Shown here: positions 650 through 23,800 of the stretch, piece by piece | Position numbering within the stretch: position 1 is the first letter of the stretch | Layout: every line of letters starts with the position of its first letter | Assembly (NCBI RefSeq): GCF_963675165.1 | Contig: NC_087388.1 | Coordinates: 4,345,047 to 4,409,046, forward strand | Source of the DNA: Halichondria panicea | Taxonomy: Eukaryota; Porifera; Demospongiae; Suberitida; Halichondriidae | Direction of reading: 5' to 3' | Length of the DNA: 64,000 nucleotides | Program-made: the position numbers and the translations under genes | The notes under the pieces: model-generated | The model's database searches: none | Seen by the model: the letters and a program-made list of their open reading frames with translations, nothing else | What the model was told of the DNA's origin: nothing

Positions 650-676
650 ATGACAGGAGATGGCGACTATTTCTAG
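650..676 (+). promoter_or_regulatory. Overlapping upstream ORF
   Basis: ATG at 650 opens an 8-codon frame that stops at 674-676 and overlaps the main start at 660 out of frame. If both lie in the mRNA, this upstream ORF could reduce translation of the kinase-USP protein. The 5' end of the transcript is unknown. Confidence 0.35.
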
Positions 677-3600
677 GGAAACAGACTTGGATAAACTAGT
701 AGTACAAGTGAAGAAGCTTAACCTAGACGCTCAGGGAAGTTCAGGAGCTTATGGAGTTGTCTACAGAGTGACTGTGGAGGGGAGAAAATGTATTGCCAAG
801 AAGCTCCACAGCATCTTGCTCAAAGTTGGTGACTACTATCCAGTGGACCAGAGAGATTCCATTATTGAAAAGTTCCGCAATGAGTGTCGCATTCTGAGCG
901 GCTTAGATCATCCAAACGTTATAGCGTTTGTTGGAGTCCACTACGGTCGAGACAAGAATGACATCAGTCTGATAATGGAGAGGCTTCAATGGGATGTGGC
1001 CGACTTTATCGAGAAGAATCCTGGCACAAGTCTCGTAACTAGAATTAACATCCTATACGATGTATCCAAGGGCCTTCAATATCTCCACTCGCTGACTCCT
1101 CCCCTCATACACCGTGACCTCACTGCTCCCAACATCTTGCTCACTGATGACCTCACTGCCAAGATTGGAGACCTGGGCGTATCCAGGTACGTTGATCCCA
1201 CTGCAATGTCACAAACCCTAACAAAGGCGCCTGGAAACGTATACTACATGTCCCCAGAAGCAAGAGACGAGAATCCGCAATACACTGTCAAGCTGGACAT
1301 TTTCTCCTTCGGTGCTCTCATTATCCACACATTCATTGGGAAAGTGCCAGATGTACATGATGTCCCATATGATCAAACTGCTGTACAGCTCAGTCAAGAG
1401 GGGAAAATCGAGTTGACAAGACGAAAAAAGGCTATTCAGCAGATGACCACAGACCACTGCATGTATCCTCTCATTGTCCGCTGTCTCCATGACAAACCCG
1501 CTTCACGTCCCACTACAGACGAATTATGTGGCTCTCTGGTTGATCTAATCCAAAAAAATGATGCTGTAAGTGAAATATAATTATATGAAGTTGATCAGTT
1601 ACGTCGATACACACTCGTCATGTACATATATAATTATAGGCTGTTCAAAAGACTGAGATTCAAGCCGCTCTTAAGCAACAGTTCAGAAAAGGGGATGTCT
1701 GGTAATTAAACATGTCTTCAAATTGATCATGTATTATAGTATGCATGGTTAAGAGTGCAATATGGGGCGAGTAACAAGCAATGGCAAGGCTACTAATTGC
1801 ACGAGGCGTCTAGCCGAGTGCTATTAACCTTGCCAGTGCTTGTTATGAGTGCTATTAATCCCTTATTGCACGAGTAGCCATACTATTGATTTCTAATTGT
1901 GTATGATGGAGTTCTCTGCAGTTTTTCTTAATATTTTCGGCCACGGCCATTATTCGAAAACAATACGTTGTCATTGACAGCGTGCAATTACTTGACAGGT
2001 AATTGACGGCGCGCAATTACTGGACCGGATGTGATACGGGATTAATTGCTGTACACTCTCCAGTCACTAATAGCACATCATACGATTAATACATGTATGT
2101 GTATAATTATGATGGGTGTTTTTATTCCTTAGGTTCTTGGTCGACATTCGCTGGATAAAACAGTGGATGAAGTTCATAGGCTATAAGCCTGATGACCAGT
2201 CATCAGTTGGCAAGAAGTCCGCTAACCCAGGACCACTGGACAATTCAAACCTTTCCAACACCCGTAAGTTGTGAGTTGCACTTAATTCTGTTGCCCAAAT
2301 CAACACTTATAGGAGAAGTAAGGGTTGGTGTTTTAAATTGTTATTTCAATCGCACTATGACACAGCAACCTTTTTTAATCAGTATGTGTAGCTACTTGTA
2401 TATCCGTTTGAATTTATCTATGGTATCTGAAGTTTTCGTCTCTGTATCTGCTGTATCTGCATTTACGTTGATCATAATTATTTTATAGACGGTCATCTTC
2501 GTGAGCGCTTGGTGGATGAGATGGACTACTTTCTTATTCCAGAGTCAGCTTGGAACAAACTTGCATCCTGGTATGGCCTCAGTCCGAGTTCAAAGGTCAT
2601 CTCAAGGTATTTTGGCGAAAATTCATGCATGCACTAAAAGACATGTGGAATATGCTTTTTGCAGGAGAGTGATTGAGTACGGACTGTGCGAAAAACACCT
2701 TAAGGTGGAGGTGTATCTGCTAGAGTTCCAGCTATGTGCACAGCCCTACCTTAACGACGTGAAGACGAGGGAGTTCAGCAGAGCAGACACTGTTTGTGAG
2801 TAGTTATAACACCACTTTGATGATTAGAGTGACGATTGTATACATGTACATGGTAGCTGATATATTAGCATCCATTTCACAGCTGATTTGGAGTCTGCTA
2901 TTAGGGAGGAGTTTGGTATCCCCCTAACCAGAGAGTGCAGGGTGTGGCATCGCTACATGGCAAATACCTATGAGCTATTGTCAAAAGCTGACCAATCTCT
3001 GCACGATGTTGGACTCTACAATGAAGAGGTGAGCAACTTATTTTCATCTGTTAGCTACGTATAATTATACGTTAAATCACTCCAGGTAAACAATGTAGTA
3101 CGAGTTACGTACGTAACTTAGTGCAATAAAGATTTGATTTGACTTCTATGCATGCAGACTGTTATGCTGGAGAAGAAGAACGATGATGGGTCATGGCCAC
3201 ACCGTAACACTGTACCATGTGGACTGAGTAACCCTGGCAACACTTCATTTATGAACTCAGTTCTCCATGTAAATGCCAATTAATAATTGTGATGTTCAAC
3301 TCACACAGAAATGTGCAATTTACATCTAGAATATTGCCATGTTTTGTTGTCACATAATGTCGTATCTCTTTCTTGTCCTTCATGTAGTGCCTAAGCAACA
3401 CTGTCTCCCTCACTAACTACTTCCTGGAAGACTACAAGAAGCACATCGATACGACCAGCACTCTGGGAACGGGCGGGGCCATTGCCGAGGCTTATGCGGC
3501 CCTAATAGAGGAATTGTGGTGTGGGAAAGGCAGCGTTATTGCCCCAAAGCACTTCCTCGTGAGTACATATACATGTAGCTGTTTTCACATCATAATCAAC

Positions 3601-6600
3601 TTGTCACACGTTTTTGCTGGTAACATGCAGGTCCAGGTTCGTCGCTATGCCTCACAGTTAACAGACCTTGTTGAGCATGACGCTAATGAGCTTCTGGCTA
3701 TCCTATTGGACAGCCTACACGAAGACCTCAACCTGGTGAAAACAAAACTTTCCATTGACATGACTGTGCCTACCAAAGGCAGGGAGGAACAGGTTAGTGT
3801 AATTTGTTCCCAATAACAATAATTATTATTATATTTGGAGCAGGACATTGCTGAAGAGTGGTGGCACAAGCACCTACAACGAAACCAGTCTATGATCGTC
3901 AAGTTATTCCAAGGTCAGCTGCGAACAACATTGGAATGCTCAAAGTGTAAACAGACATCAAAGACCTTTGATCCCTTTACAACGTTGTCACTACAACTCC
4001 CACCCTTCAAAGGGACAAGAAACATCTATGTCTGTTTGGTCCGTAGCAATCCCTTTCAATCAGTCATGAAGGTGAGATTCAATTTACAGAATGCAGATGA
4101 CTACATGTATATACCGTATAGCGGGTAATTTTTGTGGGGTACAAAATTCGTTTATCTCGAAAAAGGTGATTGTCGTGAGTAACAATTTTGTTTAGTCTCA
4201 TTGCCTGCACTGCATTTATACGTTGGAGGTCAGCTTGCCCATGAAAATAAAAAATATTTACCCCCAAAATTTACCCGCTATACGGCAGTAAAAAATTCAA
4301 TAATTAGCTCTGTACATTAATTTGGATAGAGCACTGATTTGTACCATGGGCTCTCGCTAATCCGGCTCTCTGCATTATTGTCACTTCGTTATACCGGCCA
4401 TTGCGTTTGGCACAAAATTAATTGCTAGCAATATTGTACAAAACTCGCCCTGAAATACAGCCCATCTCGCTATACTGTACTGTAATACTGGTCAGTTTTG
4501 ACAGCCTAAAACCATGAATGCACTTTTATTACTTTAATACGTACGACCCGTAATTGATTACACTCTAATAGAGAGCATGATGACTCATCATACGTGAGGC
4601 AGAACCGCTAGCCTCGATTCCAGGTCGCTTTTCAATTGAGAAAGATGGCCTGGTATACACTGTCTGCGCATGCGTCAATTACTCCAAGATTCTTGGGGAT
4701 CGAGATATCTTAGTAAATTAGTCAGTATATTGTATATTTTACAATGATGTCATTGCACAAATCACAGCAGAATAACACAGCTACTTACAACATTTATGAC
4801 CTAGACTACATGTATATAGTGACTAGTTTTGTTGTGATGGCTTCTACTTCTGTTCTGCTCTTGCTCAAGCTCTCTCCAGTGTTGAAAAGTCAGGTTTTGT
4901 CTTCTTTTGTACTGTGGTAGAGTGGTGGGCGTTTTTCTGTCAGTACCTACCGGCTCTGGCAAGTCTACTTGCTTCCAGACGCTTGTTTGATGCCATCTCA
5001 GTAAGATCAGTGTTCCTTGTATGAGCCTGGAGTTGTGATGGCGATTTCTCTCTCATAGTTTAATCAACTACGTGGGTGACCATAGTACAAAAGGTTAATT
5101 GATAAATTACGAAGAGTTTTACTAACAAATTTACTATTGAATCCACCCACGCGTAAACGGTGGTTACCAGGCCCTCTAGTGATAGGGGCTGGGGTCGAGG
5201 CTACAGAACCGCTAAAGTATAACCATTGGATTTGAGTCATGCTGGGCTGCGAATTAGCCCCAGTCACTTTATGAATTGCGGCCACCTCGCTAATACGGAC
5301 AAACTGTACTGTCCCAAGAGTGACCAGATTAACGAGTCCACTGTATTTGCACAATATGCTCTACATTTACATTTATTCCAGTACTATAATTATATACTCA
5401 ATATCATTTCCGCATGTTACAACATAGTATAAGCTGAAGCTTCTCAAAAACGGTCGTATAATGGACTTAAAGACGAAGCTGGGCTCACTGTGTGACATAG
5501 AGGCCAGCCACTTGGCAGTGACAGATGTGTACAACGGTCGATTCCACAGGATCTACGCTGACAAGGACCCTCTCTCACACATTGTGGACAAGGTACGTAT
5601 TCACTATGCTGTACCAAAAGTAGATAGAGAAAAGTGTTGAACTGCTGTACGTAGTAAACGCGGAAGTCCATTTACCAAACTCTATGTCATCATTGTTCAA
5701 TTTAAGTGTTGTTAAGTACCGTACATTGTATTTACTTGATTAAACGCCCTCCTTGAATAAACGCCCATCTCGTTTAAACGCCCAGGGTAAAAGCTCTGTC
5801 TTTGTCAATAAACACCCATCTTAAATAATCGCCCATATATGGGGCGTGGCACTGTGGGTGGAGCTGAAATAGCACATGGAACCCAGTTGCAAGCAGGGCA
5901 GCATAGAATATAATAATACTTTTTATTATGCATCGATGGCAGAGAGAGAGATACCGACACAGAGGGCACTCCTATGACTTAAAATTAAGCTGAGAAATAG
6001 ATTTAAGCTGAGACAGCAGCCCAAGAAGAGCACAATAACTGCTGCTGTGCAAAAGTTTTGGAGTAGACATAACAATAAACGCCCCCTCTAAAGACTTCGA
6101 TCTGAAATAAACGCCCGGGCGTTTAATCAAGTAAATATGGTATGTGCATGTGGTTTCTATAGCACTGCCCTAGCTCTGCGTGTGTGGTTTCTGGGAAGTA
6201 TTGCTAAAATTAATATTAGTGATGAGCAGAGTTGGCCAAATTTTACTAATCAGTGCATCGTTCTTACTCTTATCTACTCTTGACTGCATATACGCAGAGG
6301 AGGAACGCTAGGGTCAAAAGGTTATTAATTAAAACACCATGTGGCCCTAGCCTATGTCTGAGTTTACCCTCGCACCCTTGAGTTTATACACCACCACTAG
6401 CTTGATCCTCTTTATAATCACAACAGAAATCGGTTGAGCTATCGCGCCCCAGAGGAATCAGCGTGAGAGAGGAGATCCAGGATTTAATTGCAACCTTTGA
6501 CCTTTTATTGCATTCTTCGAAACCACACGATTGGAAAATTAGCCTTCTGTGGCTAGGATATAAATTTTGATGTGCTGGCTTGATGCACTGGATCTAGATC

Positions 6601-9600
6601 TAGGTTTAAGCTTCCCATGCAAGCAGGCAAATAAAGAACAGAAACGCTATAAGCTGTTATATGCAGGAACCCAAATTTCATTAAATGTGACCCTATTGAC
6701 CCTGGCGTTCCTCCTGGCATGTACCTATTATGAAATGTCAAGATTAATATGGCTTGCAGGATGACATCTATTGCTACCAACTCCAAAAAGAGCACATTGG
6801 CAACAGAAAGATGGTTCACGTACCAGTTTACATGAGGGCAGAAACGTTCGTATAATTATTTTTTGTACATGTACAAGACACTATACCAGTGTAGCCTCAT
6901 TTCCAGGCTGCAAAAAAGAGGGAAAACAGCCTGCATAATACTCTGTTAGCGTATGCGTCGGTACCCCCAAGACTCTTAGGGTTTGCAATACTTTTATTAG
7001 TAAATTTGTCACCGTATACTGAGTTTCAATTGCAATACGTCTATTTGGATTGCAAAATGCGAGTTTTCGCGTACAATAGACCAAGCAGACCAGTGTGTAT
7101 ATAAAAAATTAGTTGCCGTAGATCGCAAACGAAAGACATGCATTCTAGAAACACAATAGGGCTTGTACATTTTTTACCCCACAACAATTACCCGCTATAC
7201 GGTGATTGATATATATATATCCACCCACGCGCTAACATTGAATACCAGGCCCTAGCTAATACAAGTGGCTGGAATCAAGGCTAACAATACACCTGTACGT
7301 ACTTACAGTGAGCCACAGTACTCACCAAACAAATCGTCGAGGTACTTCATTCTGTTTGGGTTTCCAATTATTGTGTACGTACCAGCAGACGCCACCTATA
7401 GGACTCTGTATACTGCCGTTGTCATCACAATGAGGTGAGGGATAACATGCAAGCTGTGTGTGCATGCGTCCATTGTTAGTGTATGTGTGTCCATTATAAG
7501 GATGTGTACATAATTATTATCCTATAGGAGGTATGTGAAGCTTTTGTCTGAAGTCCAAGAACATGTATCTGTTGAAAGTAAGAAAGATGATTGTTTTCAG
7601 ATTCAATACATTATCTCCTTTAGCAGGAGAGACCGAGAAGGACTTGTTCCAATTGACGGTTGTCAATTGCTATGGCTCTCAGGATATCAAGAAACTTGTT
7701 GATGACCCGCAAACACCTCTGCAACTGTCAGGTGTGTAGAAGGAGTCAGTTGGTATGCAGCCTTACTGCGATCGAATATTGGATCCCACTTGTTTAGCTA
7801 CATGTACCATTCCTTTTATTATGGTGTATGCATGTGTGTGCTTGTAGGCTCTACTTACATTGCCTGTGACTGGGACCAGGAAGTAAAGGAACAGTGCTAT
7901 AACGAGGAAAAGAGCAAGGTGCACATGCATGCAGTGTAATTTGTTTGCCAGTACGTACACTATAACTAATTCAATGACTGAGGTAGAAATCGACTCTGCG
8001 CTAATTTAAATGGTGGAGCACATGCGAAGAATGAAGTTCATAAATCAGACATAATGCCTCAACAGTATAATATACCGGTACATGTACATGTACATGTAGC
8101 GTGCAACACCTGTTGTAATGTATGCTTATATATAGGAGTTTGTGGAGCACCAATCAGTGGGCAAGAGTGAGAGCGATGTACAATTGATGGATTGCTTGGA
8201 TATGTTCACCGTCCTGGAGACAGTTGACGACAATTGGTAAGCCATTCATCTTAAATAAATAATTATTTTGGTGTTAGTATTTTTGTGATTCTCTATACTT
8301 ATTCAAAAGGCATTGTCCAAAGTGTAAAGAGGACACCTCGGTAACAAAGAAGAACGAGGTTTGGACTTTGCCAGACGTATTGACGCTGCACCTCATGAGA
8401 TTATCAAAAGACAGGTAAAGTAAATAATGCTGGGTTCAAGTTTGAATTCTGGATATACAATAGACTCTCGCTATAGTATTCTGGCGCTCTGCAGTAGTAC
8501 GGCCACCTCGATATACCGGCCATTTGGTTTGCTAGCTAGATGTTTACTGCACAAAACTCCGTATACCGGCCAGTACATTTATTACTGCCGGATATGTTGT
8601 TTTGGGTGTGGTTTAGCAGATAAAAATTAGACAGAACCATAAAATTTGTCATTTGATCCGTTTTTTAACCGCGGCTATTTTCTGAAATGCAGCCACCTCG
8701 CTATTCCGGCCTGTAGCTGCACTGTCCCAAAGATGGTCGGATTAACGAGAGTCTACTATAATTTTATGTAATCACAGTGCCACGTCAGCATCAGCATAAT
8801 TTTTGAGGCCCTAAAACAAGCGTCTACCGTTGCTGTAATTATTTTTTCTGTCGCTTATAAACTTGTTTGAGACATCAAGACAATCATCCTGCATCTTCAC
8901 GTTTTAAACAGTTGTCTGACCATGCATAGCTACAGTTCATGAATGTTGTTCACGAGTCAGCTCCAACGTTGCAGCTAGCTAGCAAGTGAAACTGAGTTAG
9001 ACCACGCCCATTTTCTCTAAAATGTCTATACTAGCTGTAGAACACCACCATAATTTTGGCACCAGCTGGGCTGAACACTACTTTTGTGCTAAAAGATGCG
9101 CCACTCAGAAGTAGTTTTCTGGCGCTGTAATTACATCAATTAACGGTTATGCAATAACTTTTTTGTTTACGGCCAAGTGTGACAGACTTTAATCATTCAA
9201 CAACCCTACAGTGACAAGCTGAACGTTATGGTGGACTTCCCTGTATCTGGATTGGATCTCTCCTCTCTAGTACGGTGTCCCAATGTGGTAGAAACTGTCT
9301 ACGACCTCTATGCTGTTTGCAACCGTGTTGGAGGAGCAAAGGATGGGCATTGTGGGTATACAAGTATTCTTTTGTGTTTGTTCCGTTTTCATCCAAATAT
9401 TTTGTGCCCATAATTAATTTCAATTTCTCAGATACTGCCAGTGCTAAGAAAATGGACGATAAACAGTGGTACCAATTCGATGACAGCATCGTCTCAGAGA
9501 CTAGAGAAGATAGACTTGTGGTGAGCTCTCTAAACACAACATCATGCAAGCTAGCACACAGATATTCATGACCTATACCTAATACCCACAGACGGCAGCT

Positions 9601-9654
9601 GCATATATACTGTTCTATCGTCGTCGTGGCTGGGTCTCACCACCTAGTATCTAG
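660..9654 (+). CDS. Protein kinase fused to DUSP-UBL-USP (USP4/11/15-like) with catalytic Cys replaced by Ser
   Basis: Twenty-one exons: 660-1565, 1640-1701, 2133-2263, 2489-2606, 2665-2795, 2883-3028, 3158-3268, 3388-3558, 3631-3792, 3844-4071, 5428-5592, 6760-6849, 7319-7434, 7528-7577, 7624-7731, 7848-7918, 8136-8236, 8310-8414, 9212-9351, 9432-9520, 9592-9654. Every junction is GT-AG with matching phase; the sum is 3264 nt (1087 aa plus stop). Residues 1-302 form a TKL-like kinase with Gly-rich loop GSSGAYG, K47, HRD 151-153, N158 and DLG 171-173, all consistent with activity. DUSP (about 305-410, with GDVWFLVDIRWIKQW) and a UBL (about 412-500) follow, then a USP domain interrupted by a second UBL as in USP4/15. 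The Cys box reads GLSNPGNTSFMNS: Ser528 replaces the nucleophile. The His box GHYT (H1037), D1054 and zinc CxxC pairs (678/681, 958/961) remain. Likely role, by inference: a kinase joined to a ubiquitin-binding pseudo-deubiquitinase. Confidence 0.85.
1566..1639 (+). other. Junction intron between kinase and USP parts
   Basis: A 74-bp intron with donor GTAAGT and acceptor TTATAG, phase 0 on both sides. If it is retained, the kinase frame reads five more codons and stops at 1578-1580, giving a 306-residue kinase-only protein. Alternative splicing here would switch between kinase alone and the fusion. Exon 2 has no usable in-frame ATG close upstream, which favours a fusion over two separate genes. 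Confidence 0.75.
1757..2080. mobile_element. Interspersed repeat, family F, copy 1 (in intron 2)
   Basis: This stretch contains TTGCCAGTGCTTGTTATGAG and TTATTGCACGAGTAGCC and is closely matched at 28964-29125 (same strand) and 63567-63885 (opposite strand). It fills intron 2 of the kinase-USP gene. Exact ends and duplications were not fixed by eye. Confidence 0.65.
4114..4285. mobile_element. CCGTATAGCGGG palindromic MITE, copy 1
   Basis: It begins CCGTATAGCGGGTAA and ends with the reverse complement TTACCCGCTATACGG, in intron 10 of the kinase-USP gene. Further copies or fragments: 7155-7201, 16743-16875, 18343-18585, 25957-26192, 40695-40908, 42659-42867, 52689-52757 and 53082-53356. Confidence 0.8.
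4609..5203. mobile_element. TAGCCTCGA-family element with helicase relic
   Basis: Termini TAGCCTCGA and TCGAGGCTA (perfect 9-bp TIR) are flanked by the direct repeat CAGAACCGC (4600-4608, 5204-5212), a 9-bp target-site duplication. It carries a decayed helicase fragment. At 595 bp it is far longer than its relatives at 493-545 and 60479-60546; a relative of similar size is at 6892-7283. Confidence 0.75.
4899..5003 (+). pseudogene. RecQ-like helicase ATP-binding fragment (relic)
   Basis: One short frame reads VFLSVPTGSGKSTCFQTLV then a stop. PTGSGKST is a Walker A (motif I) box with the spacing seen in RecQ-type helicases. Flanking sequence is out of frame or stopped. It lies inside the TIR element 4609-5203 and is probably cargo or an acquired fragment. 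The RecQ assignment rests on one motif only. Confidence 0.5.
5716..6142. mobile_element. TIR element, AAACGCCC type (in USP intron 11)
   Basis: Left end TTTACTTGATTAAACGCCC (from about 5730) pairs with right end GGCGTTTAATCAAGTAAAT (to about 6137), with further AAACGCCC motifs inside. A non-autonomous inverted-repeat element; no coding frame seen. Confidence 0.65.
6892..7283. mobile_element. TAGCCTCGA-family element, diverged
   Basis: Starts TAGCCTCAT and ends TCAAGGCTA. It shares CCACCCACGCG and CCAGGCCCT near the right end with the element at 4609-5203. A CCGTATAGCGGG-type end (7188-7201) is nested near the right side. No duplication is recognisable. It lies in intron 12 of the kinase-USP gene. 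Confidence 0.5.
8461..8755. mobile_element. TAGACTCTCG-type MITE
   Basis: Left end TAGACTCTCGCTATAG and right end AACGAGAGTCTA are inverted. The interior has repeated GGCCACCTCG and CCGGCC motifs. It lies in intron 18 of the kinase-USP gene and is the most intact copy here of this family (see 4348-5341 and 16891-17236). Confidence 0.7.
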
Positions 9655-12689: not shown

Positions 12690-13127
12690 CTAGTCGAGAA
12701 AGTACTTGAGCTTGGTTCGACCACCACCCTCCAAATCGAGAGGCTTGTTTCGATAGTGTTTGATTAGTTTCTTGATAGACTTGAATTCCTTAGCATTTGC
12801 GACATTTGCCAATGCGTACTTGCCATTAGATAGCTTGATAACCTCAACATGATGAGTTTCTCCATTCAGCAACACTGAGATCATGTAGACAGGCTCTCTA
12901 CGAACTGATAAAGCATCACTCTCTCGAACAAGAAATGTACCATCGAATCTTGCAGACTTTGATAGCTTATCTTCAGCTATAGAGCGATTCATTCTCCCTC
13001 CATACCATGGCAAGTCTTTGTCTCTGATATCAGGGTTTTCAGTACCCTCTGGCCTGTCTTCAGTGATGACTAACCAGTCTTCATAACTCTCTTCAGAATA
13101 TACTTTGGGACACTTTATAGAAGCCAT
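12690..13127 (-). CDS. SH2-domain-only protein, single exon (145 aa)
   Basis: The product has a short acidic N-terminus (1-40) and one SH2 domain (about 41-143). The domain starts at PWYGGRMNR and has FLVRES at 65-70; R68 is the phosphotyrosine-binding arginine. The last residues, KYFLD, close the domain, so no other domain fits. Such proteins act as free phosphotyrosine readers or competitors of larger adaptors; the fold resembles PI3K-p85 or adaptor SH2 domains, but I cannot name an orthologue. The start ATG (13127-13125) is the first in a frame that opens just upstream, and there is no intron. It stands alone on the minus strand between MITEs and a small plus-strand gene. Confidence 0.85.
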   Translation of the reverse strand: MASIKCPKVYSEESYEDWLVITEDRPEGTENPDIRDKDLPWYGGRMNRSIAEDKLSKSARFDGTFLVRESDALSVRREPVYMISVLLNGETHHVEVIKLSNGKYALANVANAKEFKSIKKLIKHYRNKPLDLEGGGRTKLKYFLD

Positions 13128-20800: not shown

Positions 20801-23800
20801 AAGCTACATTTTGCTCGCTTTTATTAGACAACGAAGCTTTAACACCGAAAGCTGCCACTATTAGAAGTACTGACTTGTTGTGTGGAGGCTACCCATGCTG
20901 TAAACGCAGTGCTAGAGCATCCAGGTAAGCAGACCCAGTCACAAGCTTCTTAGCTTTTGCTCGTTTTTATTTGACAACGAAGGTTTAACATGAAATTCTG
21001 CCACTATTAAAATTAATAACTTGTTGTATGAAGGCTATCTATGCTGTAAACGCAGTGCTGTGGCATCCAGGTGAGTAGATTCACCTGTCACAAACAAACC
21101 AAACGACTACTATAACCCATGGCCGCCCACGCGCCTCGGGTTAATAATGCATTTATATATTATATTATTATTATATGCAAAACTATGCATATGATCCTCG
21201 CACTTACTCGACTCCCTGTGCTGTCTGTCGTGCAATGTCCACCAGCTGGTACATTTCAAACTTGGTCTCCGCAACGTGCAAATGTCTGTATAGTGTAGAC
21301 CCATCACACCACTGTGTTACTATGGTGATCTCAGGCATTGACGTCCAACCCATGAACAAGAGCACATTGGCATGACGAGTTTTTCTGGTGTGTGTGTGTG
21401 TGTGTGAGGGAGGGGATGCCAAATAAACTCGAGTATTAATATATATACGTATACGTACGCTGGCAACACTGTCAGTTGTAAGCTAATGCATATTGACCTT
21501 TAGGATGTGAAAATACGTTGTACACATACATTTTGTACATTTACCGTTTCAAAGTGAAAGTAAACGATAATCAATCAGCAAACTCTACATAACCACAGAT
21601 ACCGAATCAAAACATAGCCATAAGTATAGAGACACAGATGAAGTATTCCATGAACACACACAAGTACGTACCGCGTCACGAGGCATAGGCAGTTTAGCAT
21701 TAGGGTACACACACAAGTACATACCATGTCACGAGGCATACACTATAGGCAGTTTAGCATTAGGGTGCACACACCAGTACGTACCACGTCACGAGGCATA
21801 CACTATAGGCAGTTTAGCATTAGGGTACACACACCAGTACGTACCACGTGACAAGGCATACACTATAGGCACAGTTTAGCATTAGGGTACACACACCAGT
21901 ACGTACCACGTGACAAGGCATACACTATAGGCACAGTTTAGCATTAGGGTACACACACCAGTACGTACTGCGTCACGAGGCATACACTATAGGCAGTTTA
22001 GCATTAGGGTGCACACACCAGTACGTACCGCGTCACGAGGCATACACTATAGGCACAGTTTAGCATTAGGGTACACACACCAGTACGTACCGCGTCACGA
22101 GGCATACACTATAGGCAGTTTAGCATTAGGGTACACACACAAGTACGTACCGCGTCACGAGGCATACACTATAGGCAGTTTAGCATTAGGGTACACACAC
22201 CAGTACGTACCGCGTCACGAGGCATACACTATAGGCAGTTTAGCATTAGGGTACACACACAAGTACGTATCACGTTACGAGGCATACACTTTAGGCAGTT
22301 TAGCATTAGGGTGCACACACAAGTACGTACCGCGTCACGAGGCATACACTATAGGCAGTTTAGCATTAGGGTACACACACAAGTACGTATCACGTTACGA
22401 GGCATACGCTTTAGGCAGTTTAGCATTAGGGTGCACACACAAGTACGTACCGCGTCACGAGGCATACACTATAGGCACAGTTTAGCATTAGGGTACACAC
22501 ACCTTAGCACTCCCACTTCGTTTTTGAACGCCTGCAACTGTTGCTCTGTGGGGTTAGTCACGTTGAGCTTCTTCACTGCCACATGACCTGGTTTGGAAGG
22601 GGGAGACTATTCATTCAGTACAATTATAGGAAACACTATTCGATGAGAAAGTAAATTATGAAATTGTTACCCACAAGGTAGGGATGGAAACAAGAAATCT
22701 GCTGACTACAATGTACACGTGCATGCATGACCATGTGTACACTGTACATAATGACACTGTGAAGAATCACGTGGTATAGCTGGCCTATTTTAAGCAGTCA
22801 TGCCTCATTTTTGGGAAAAACGCTAGCTTAGGCCATACAAATTAACTTACACGTTACTTTTTTCTCGGGCCTTTCTCCTAAGCATTTTATGTGGGGATGC
22901 AGGTTTTTATATTAAAACAGTTAGTCCTATTGTCATGTACATAAAAGGTCAAAGGCCGTGTGATAGACCTCTTTTGAGCTACAAAATACACGTCTTTTTT
23001 ACTGATCCAACTATAAGCAGATGTGAAGATTGAAATAGTTGCGATGAAATATATAATTACAGCAGTGTGTTACACTATATTCCGCCCCACAAGGTCTTCA
23101 TTCACAGGCTGTATAATCTCAACTCCACTCACCATGCCATTTCCCCTTGTAGACAGTCCCAAAGGACCCTGAGCCGATCTTGTCTCCTATCTCTATTTCT
23201 TGGAAGGGGATCTCCCACACATCAGTACTGTCTCGATTGTTTTTCTGTATCATTTTGTTTGGGGAGGGGAAGGGGGCAGTGTTATTACAGGTTACCAGCT
23301 AGTGAAAGACGGGCAAACCTTCAGTATAAGCCCACTTAAACACCAGTTCAATCTTAACTAACAAAAGAAAAATCAGAATCGTTTGCTTACCTTTTTGGTT
23401 TTGTCCTCCATAGACACTCTGTTCCGTGATCTCCGTAATGGTAGCGTACTGCTATCGTAACTAGTGGCCCCATTGACCCGTCGTCCTCCCTTGTGTCTAC
23501 CCGTGGTGGTGACGTCCATACTAGAGGCTGCGTATGGTTGAAGATGAGTCTTCAATAGACTCGGGCTACTGGCTACACCCGAGCTACTGGCTACACCAGG
23601 GCTCGAAATAACGTTGTCAGGGGTGATGGAGAGGCGGTCACCAGATGAACTGCGCCTGTGTGTGTGTGTGTGAGGGGGAGTGGTTATTTAACGTGTGTAT
23701 TCTATGGGTCCAGGGCATGCAAGACTTGTACATTCTGTTTCAAAGGAAGCTGTGTGTGTATTCAACAAGCACAGAGGGTGGACTTGTACATGTACCGTAG

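Follow-up and report, generated by a model that had tools for sequence, protein, structure and literature searches.

The sponge Halichondria panicea appears to encode a protein in which a kinase and a ubiquitin-specific protease (USP) of the USP4/15 type share one chain, the USP having lost its catalytic cysteine. The gene lies at positions 660-9654 on the forward strand of the stretch of DNA analyzed here, which we call the window (64,000 nucleotides of contig NC_087388.1, positions 4,345,047 to 4,409,046 of assembly GCF_963675165.1). The fusion is well supported at the sequence level, with two paralogs carrying the same junction. On balance, we favor the reading that this is an exon-shuffled gene, whose kinase would be directed by the docking arm of USP4/15 together with a ubiquitin-binding domain that no longer cuts.

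Gene Model and Domain Layout

We rebuilt the gene from the raw sequence as 21 exons and 20 GT-AG introns in phase, with the splice sites picked by eye (Table 1). Together the exons form one uninterrupted spliced frame of 1088 residues, or 1089 codons when the stop is counted. A preliminary description of this DNA, made from the letters only, had likewise found all 20 introns to keep phase and is off by one residue in giving the product length as 1087. An in-frame TGA lies immediately 5' of the ATG at 660. The donor of exon 12 at 6845 (GTTCGT) is in phase 2, as is its counterpart in the genome's ordinary USP4/15 gene when the two are compared by eye, and use of the donor at 9351 (GTGGGT) yields the canonical His box GHYTA.

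The same description had proposed a domain search of the product. Above its curated cut-offs, Pfam returns a kinase at residues 27-291 (PF07714, 2.9e-35; 122.2 bits for PK_Tyr_Ser-Thr/Pkinase against a cut-off of 23.1), DUSP at 320-409 (8.5e-19), Ubiquitin_3 at 426-512 (7.9e-25), and UCH at 519-1077 (1.8e-57). DUSP, Ubiquitin_3, and UCH in this order make up the USP4/15 family architecture. The open frame runs continuously over GT-AG junctions that are kept in the paralogs, one acceptor of paralog A excepted.

Table 1. Coordinates of the parts of the kinase-USP gene in the window
Feature	Position	Strand	Basis
Exon 1, whole kinase domain, residues 1-302	660..1565	+	Pfam, residue check
Phase-0 kinase/DUSP intron of 74 bases, GTAAGT...ATTATAG	1566..1639	+	exon model
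Exon 2, DUSP N-terminus of USP4/15 type AVQKTEIQAALKQQFRKGDVW, without in-frame ATG	1640..1701	+	aligned with human USP15
Exons 3-5 (2133-2263, 2489-2606, 2665-2795), remaining DUSP and start of UBL	2133..2795	+	Pfam
Exon 6, UBL	2883..3028	+	exon model, base comparison with paralogs
Exon 7, linker and Cys box GLSNPGNTSFMNSVLH	3158..3268	+	alignment with USP15
Codon TCA (Ser528) at the catalytic Cys position	3245..3247	+	alignment, codon comparison
Exons 8-19, USP core halves and inserted region; CxxC zinc motifs at residues 678 and 959	3388..9351	+	Pfam, alignment
His box GHYTA (His1038; Tyr1039 split by intron 19) and FDDS (Asp1055/1056), exon 20	9348..9520	+	alignment
Exon 21, stop codon TAG at 9652-9654	9592..9654	+	exon model

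The Kinase/DUSP Junction and Its Recurrence

The central claim of the preliminary description was that the kinase exon is in frame with DUSP-UBL-USP across a GTAAGT/TTATAG intron. It holds in the rebuilt frame, and we see the junction again in two paralogs. The intron contains neither AATAAA nor ATTAAA and closes with an in-frame TAG (1637-1639), which directly precedes exon 2. As had also been described, exon 2 carries the start of the DUSP fold and has no ATG in frame; in our alignment, it corresponds to the N-terminal end of human USP15 (QRSDIATLLKTSLRKGDTW). Because of this stop and the missing start, the USP half requires an upstream coding exon. The nearest candidate is the kinase exon, 74 bases away and equipped with a GTAAGT donor.

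We searched the genome in one assembly (131 Mb, 39 contigs). Among the matches scored, the best two to the kinase after the gene itself are 80% and 79% identical (C12:3987275 and C12:3973241). They belong to two tandem genes, A and B (C12:3973223-3993587, with B at C12:3987260-3993587), on the same contig as the window gene and 0.36-0.37 Mb away from it, both with DUSP exons directly behind the kinase exon. The junction is identical in all three genes, at the same place and in phase 0, with introns of 74, 50, and 50 bases in the window gene, A, and B, each closed by an in-frame TAG and followed by A(V/F)QK(T/V)EI. The gene models indicate that the kinase/DUSP fusion is not a one-off but old and common to three genes of one genome, since A and B share its junction. 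For the same reason we rejected an assembly error or misjoin, which would also have to accommodate a Cys-to-Ser replacement that takes two base changes.

The paralogs differ from the window gene in what follows the junction. Gene B was modeled over 17 exons, all open and with GT-AG sites, which encode 911 residues with one kinase and three DUSP-UBL modules; its modeled product has no UCH match. No convincing USP exon was found in the ~6 kb beyond A or the ~5 kb beyond B, and a genome-wide UCH search shows none there either. A linker exon resembling the pre-USP linker does lie further on in both (E 0.002-0.003). Between the two tandem genes, near the end of locus L001, a reverse-transcriptase-like frame can be recognized by eye.

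DUSP matches are few in this genome. There are 14, distributed over A and B (nine), the window gene (one), an ordinary USP4/15-like gene at about C12:6622133-6630550 (two), and contigs C8 and C10 (one each). The 3.6 kb upstream of the ordinary gene contain no kinase match. The C8 match sits in a USP gene that resembles USP32 by eye and includes an EF-hand-like stretch; within ~10 kb upstream of this gene there is no kinase match either.

A USP Domain Without Its Catalytic Cysteine

The best PDB matches of the USP half are both USP15, namely 6crn for the USP part (2.9e-93) and 4a3o for DUSP-UBL (1.4e-60). Aligned with 6crn, the window gene has Ser528 at the place of the catalytic Cys (GLSNPGNTSFMN versus GLSNLGNTCFMN of human USP15). 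The core of the Cys box reads GNTSFMN, as opposed to GNTCFMN in human USP15 and in the genome's ordinary USP4/15, and the codon is TCA instead of the ordinary gene's TGC, two base changes apart. Of the residues that mark an active USP, the gene thus lacks the Cys in GNTC(F/Y), having GNTSF, and retains the His of GHY (His1038) and the Asp/Asn-Asp pair (Asp1055, Asp1056). Both CxxC motifs are kept as well.

Beyond the active site, the window gene has changed faster than the ordinary one. Over 313 comparable columns of the USP core, the window gene alone departs from human USP15 at 56 and the ordinary gene alone at 13, a few of the latter at alignment edges (p = 1.7e-7); 143 columns are the same in all three proteins, 63 are common to both sponge genes versus human, and 38 differ in all. 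The window-only changes include P600S and F602L, which by letter match leave SQL where the USP4 switching loop has PQF. The glycines before the catalytic His are altered too, from GGMGGGH in USP15 to GGAKDGH. In USP4, DUSP-Ubl and the switching loop (P384-Q385-F386) control ubiquitin release, and mutation of the loop alters it (PMC4243247).

The window USP is probably a dead protease. Of the earlier designation as a USP4/15-type deubiquitinase, the family membership stands, given the Pfam architecture and the USP15 matches, and the activity has probably gone with the Cys-to-Ser change and the fast divergence. Naturally inactive USPs are known, some of which were later reported to be active (PMC10919355).

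The Kinase Exon and Its Relatives

The kinase retains its catalytic residues, Lys47, Glu75, Asp153 (HRD), Asn158, Asp171 (DLG), and Glu200 (SPE), and all of these are invariant among 10 family members. Its closest solved chains are TNNI3K (1.5e-27), CTR1, and IRAK4 (5.9e-21). Related exons are abundant, with at least 134 matches in the genome (130 of 798 candidates were scored). Seven close relatives outside the DUSP group were sampled (L008-L012, L014, and L015). They are 57-62% identical and have the kinase in one exon; in all seven, the equivalent position has a phase-0 GT donor (by eye), and Pfam ankyrin matches lie downstream on the same strand. In a midpoint-rooted tree, the kinases of the window gene, A, and B form one clade (100/100) apart from these ankyrin-type relatives. 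As all sampled close relatives carry ankyrin exons instead, the kinase exon has the look of a module that was shuffled, a first exon placed before differing tails. In bacterial and archaeal contigs, the search for related DNA yielded 2 loci, with 27-28% identity.

Other tails may exist. At the more distant locus L023, a Kelch frame of 325 residues (2646-3620) lies 1.1 kb downstream of the kinase exon (624-1526) and in the same orientation, perhaps a further partner of the kinase head in a putative joint gene. Kelch was seen at this one locus among six distant loci (L018-L023), the downstream scan having covered L023 alone. At L021 (reverse strand), a GTPase-like motif, HDVGGQPGFLEMIPSL..., can be seen by eye downstream of a related kinase, at 2374-2931 from the far end. 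One-exon kinases form dense arrays at C10:5.05-6.42 Mb and C17:1.95-2.18 Mb, where the members sampled have ankyrin downstream. Some members score alike, such as C10:5673431 and C10:5775678 at 382.6 bits each, and such identical scores, together with the density of the arrays, suggest recent amplification.

Selection and Timing

Ratios of nonsynonymous to synonymous divergence (dN/dS) were obtained by codon counting (NG86) with bootstrap intervals. Comparing the window gene with A gives a kinase dN/dS of 0.178 (0.13-0.25), and comparing it with B gives the same value; A versus B gives 0.02 (0.00-0.12). Purifying selection thus acts on the kinase. DUSP-UBL is less tightly constrained, with 0.21 (0.14-0.34) when the window gene is set against module 3 of A and 0.23 (0.14-0.35) against that of B. 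Between A and B, module 1 gives 0.38 (0.18-0.79) and module 3 gives 0.45 (0.23-1.04). All A-B values come from direct alignment of exons, by which an earlier kinase value of 0.145 (0.03-0.34) was replaced. For modules 1 and 2, the A-B and window rows built from tblastn pieces were set aside, A1/B1 being frame-slipped and A2/B2 partial (A1-B1, 0.71 [0.49-1.10]; A2-B2, 0.78 [0.30-2.40]); the earlier A3-B3 value was 0.455 (0.27-0.96).

Between the window gene and A or B, the kinase has a synonymous divergence (dS) of 0.74-0.77, and DUSP-UBL, measured against the third module, one of 0.73-0.87. Because these values are close, kinase and DUSP-UBL are most simply read as having been joined already when the three genes split. 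Exon 6 of the window gene is identical to the third UBL of A and B at 125/141 and 124/141 bases, and to the ordinary USP4/15 at 100/141. A tree of the modules contains frame-slipped rows and leaves the sister of the window module unplaced, so module 3 was judged by dS and these base counts only.

Interpretation and Alternatives

In the scenario that we favor, a TKL-like kinase first exon with a phase-0 donor became joined to a USP4/15 duplicate and supplied its start codon. The protein would be an active kinase, whose DUSP-UBL arm brings it to USP4/15-type partners. The dead USP would at most bind and hold ubiquitin on these partners without cutting it, and the kinase, brought close in this way, would phosphorylate proteins that carry ubiquitin or associate with USP4/15. 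The dead USP may in addition be a competitor of the ordinary USP4/15. In the USP4/15/11 group, DUSP-UBL mediates part of the substrate binding (PMC4624187), and in USP4 it promotes ubiquitin release (PMC4243247). Gene B, where no USP was found, points to the docking arm as the essential part. The coupling of phosphorylation to ubiquitin recognition put forward in the preliminary description would thus survive in a narrower form, as recognition without cleavage.

A number of observations weigh against this scenario. The splice from 1565 to 1640 is itself predicted, the first glycine of the kinase G-loop is Ser, and an AlphaFold model of the kinase exon (run with ten family members) has a predicted local distance difference test score (pLDDT) of 39.5. 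Having changed so fast, the USP may have lost its ubiquitin binding. The tail is weakly constrained between A and B, with a dN/dS of 0.53 (0.36-0.79) over exons 2-17 and 0.98 (0.42-3.18) for module 2 alone. Moreover, the third exon of paralog A lacks an AG acceptor (CG in the assembly), the direct A-B alignment has one stop in A, which may stem from misalignment at gaps, and decay is evident in a fourth copy (L013, C12:3952271), with one stop and no donor. Relative to the ordinary USP4/15, the window gene has reached saturation in dS (about 2 or infinite), and the dN/dS of this pair, ~0.1, therefore tells little.

The strongest rival accepts the fusion and takes the USP for a decaying relic that binds nothing, leaving a kinase with a DUSP-UBL docking arm. 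We regard this as a minor but real possibility. It agrees with the lost catalytic Cys, with the fast-changing USP lineage of the window gene, and with gene B, which has three DUSP-UBL modules, no UCH match, and no USP exon in the ~5 kb beyond. It sits less easily with the retention of both CxxC motifs, His, and Asp, and with exons 7-21, of which 15/15 are open with GT-AG sites despite the saturated divergence from the ordinary gene. Two separate genes, on the other hand, seem quite unlikely. Here a kinase-only mRNA would read through 1566-1580 and end in VSEI, and the USP transcript would have a hidden first exon or be trans-spliced at 1640 as part of an operon. Although the kinase frame closes naturally at 1580, the halves are a mere 74 bases apart (50 in A and B), the window gene has no AATAAA/ATTAAA between them, and exon 2, with a stop immediately upstream, lacks an ATG in frame. 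Reading through gives unlike tails, VSEI for the window gene and VILFFECLLF for both paralogs, yet both exon edges correspond, and the donor recurs at the equivalent place in 7/7 sampled close relatives (by eye).

A true kinase-deubiquitinase, in which the USP still cleaves slowly through Ser or through another nucleophile, is very unlikely indeed in view of Ser528. Cys-to-Ser is the usual inactivating change in USPs, and the switching loop and the stretch before the His are altered too. What speaks for cleavage is the conservation of His and Asp, the latter being essential in USP15 (PMC10867860), as well as the record of supposed pseudo-deubiquitinases, among which USP53/54 (PMC12037411) and USP52 proved active and USP39 is disputed (PMC10919355). 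Plant "integrated decoy" receptors offer a further concept, of which the gene may, though improbably, be an animal counterpart, its kinase head having been shuffled onto baits such as ankyrin, DUSP-UBL arrays, a dead USP, and perhaps Kelch. The non-cutting USP4/15 copy would then be a bait or sensor for attackers or for ubiquitin states in which the real USP4/15 takes part, any contact being reported by the kinase. The near-frozen kinase and fast tail of A versus B (0.02 versus 0.53) would fit a constant head with diversifying baits, and weak constraint on the tail explains them equally.

Relation to Known Systems

Both halves of the steered kinase that we favor belong to known families. The window gene has the DUSP-UBL-USP order of USP4, USP15, and USP11, including the insert in the catalytic core, and differs from them by its Ser for Cys, its kinase-supplied start, and its altered switching loop (letter match). 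The kinase matches the TKL kinases TNNI3K and IRAK4. RIPK4 and ANKK1 have a kinase-plus-ankyrin layout, from which the window gene differs in carrying DUSP-UBL-USP in place of ankyrin. With the pseudo-deubiquitinase USP39, it has in common a USP fold without the catalytic Cys; USP39, however, has Asp at the Cys position and no His (PMC10919355), whereas the window gene has Ser there, keeps His and Asp, and has a kinase attached.

The preliminary description knew of no animal protein that joins a kinase to a USP. In accord with this, no kinase-USP fusion appeared among the papers listed by searches aimed at such fusions, in a collection with few subscription papers. To our knowledge, neither the union of kinase and USP, nor a natural Cys-to-Ser change of this kind, nor a three-gene family of such fusions has a precedent.

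Phosphorylation and ubiquitin signaling mostly communicate through separate proteins, and laboratories make Cys-to-Ser USPs to trap substrates. A natural chain of an intact-looking kinase, USP4/15 docking arm, and Cys-to-Ser USP would thus be a ready-made experiment in ubiquitin-directed phosphorylation. Furthermore, one genome places the kinase exon before ankyrin exons in some genes and before ubiquitin-pathway exons in others, and the duplicates let the change from enzyme to scaffold be followed.

Other Features of the Window

About 290 bases upstream of the ATG at 660 lies a perfect palindrome of 68 bases with 33-base arms (306-373, by eye), reminiscent of a hairpin that is either a small element or regulatory. 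On the reverse strand, a 145-residue frame at 12690-13127 resembles by eye a lone SH2 domain protein (WYGGRMNRSIAEDKL...TFLVRESD). Finally, a frame at 22009-22485 consists of near-identical repeats of ~20 residues and is probably a tandem DNA repeat.

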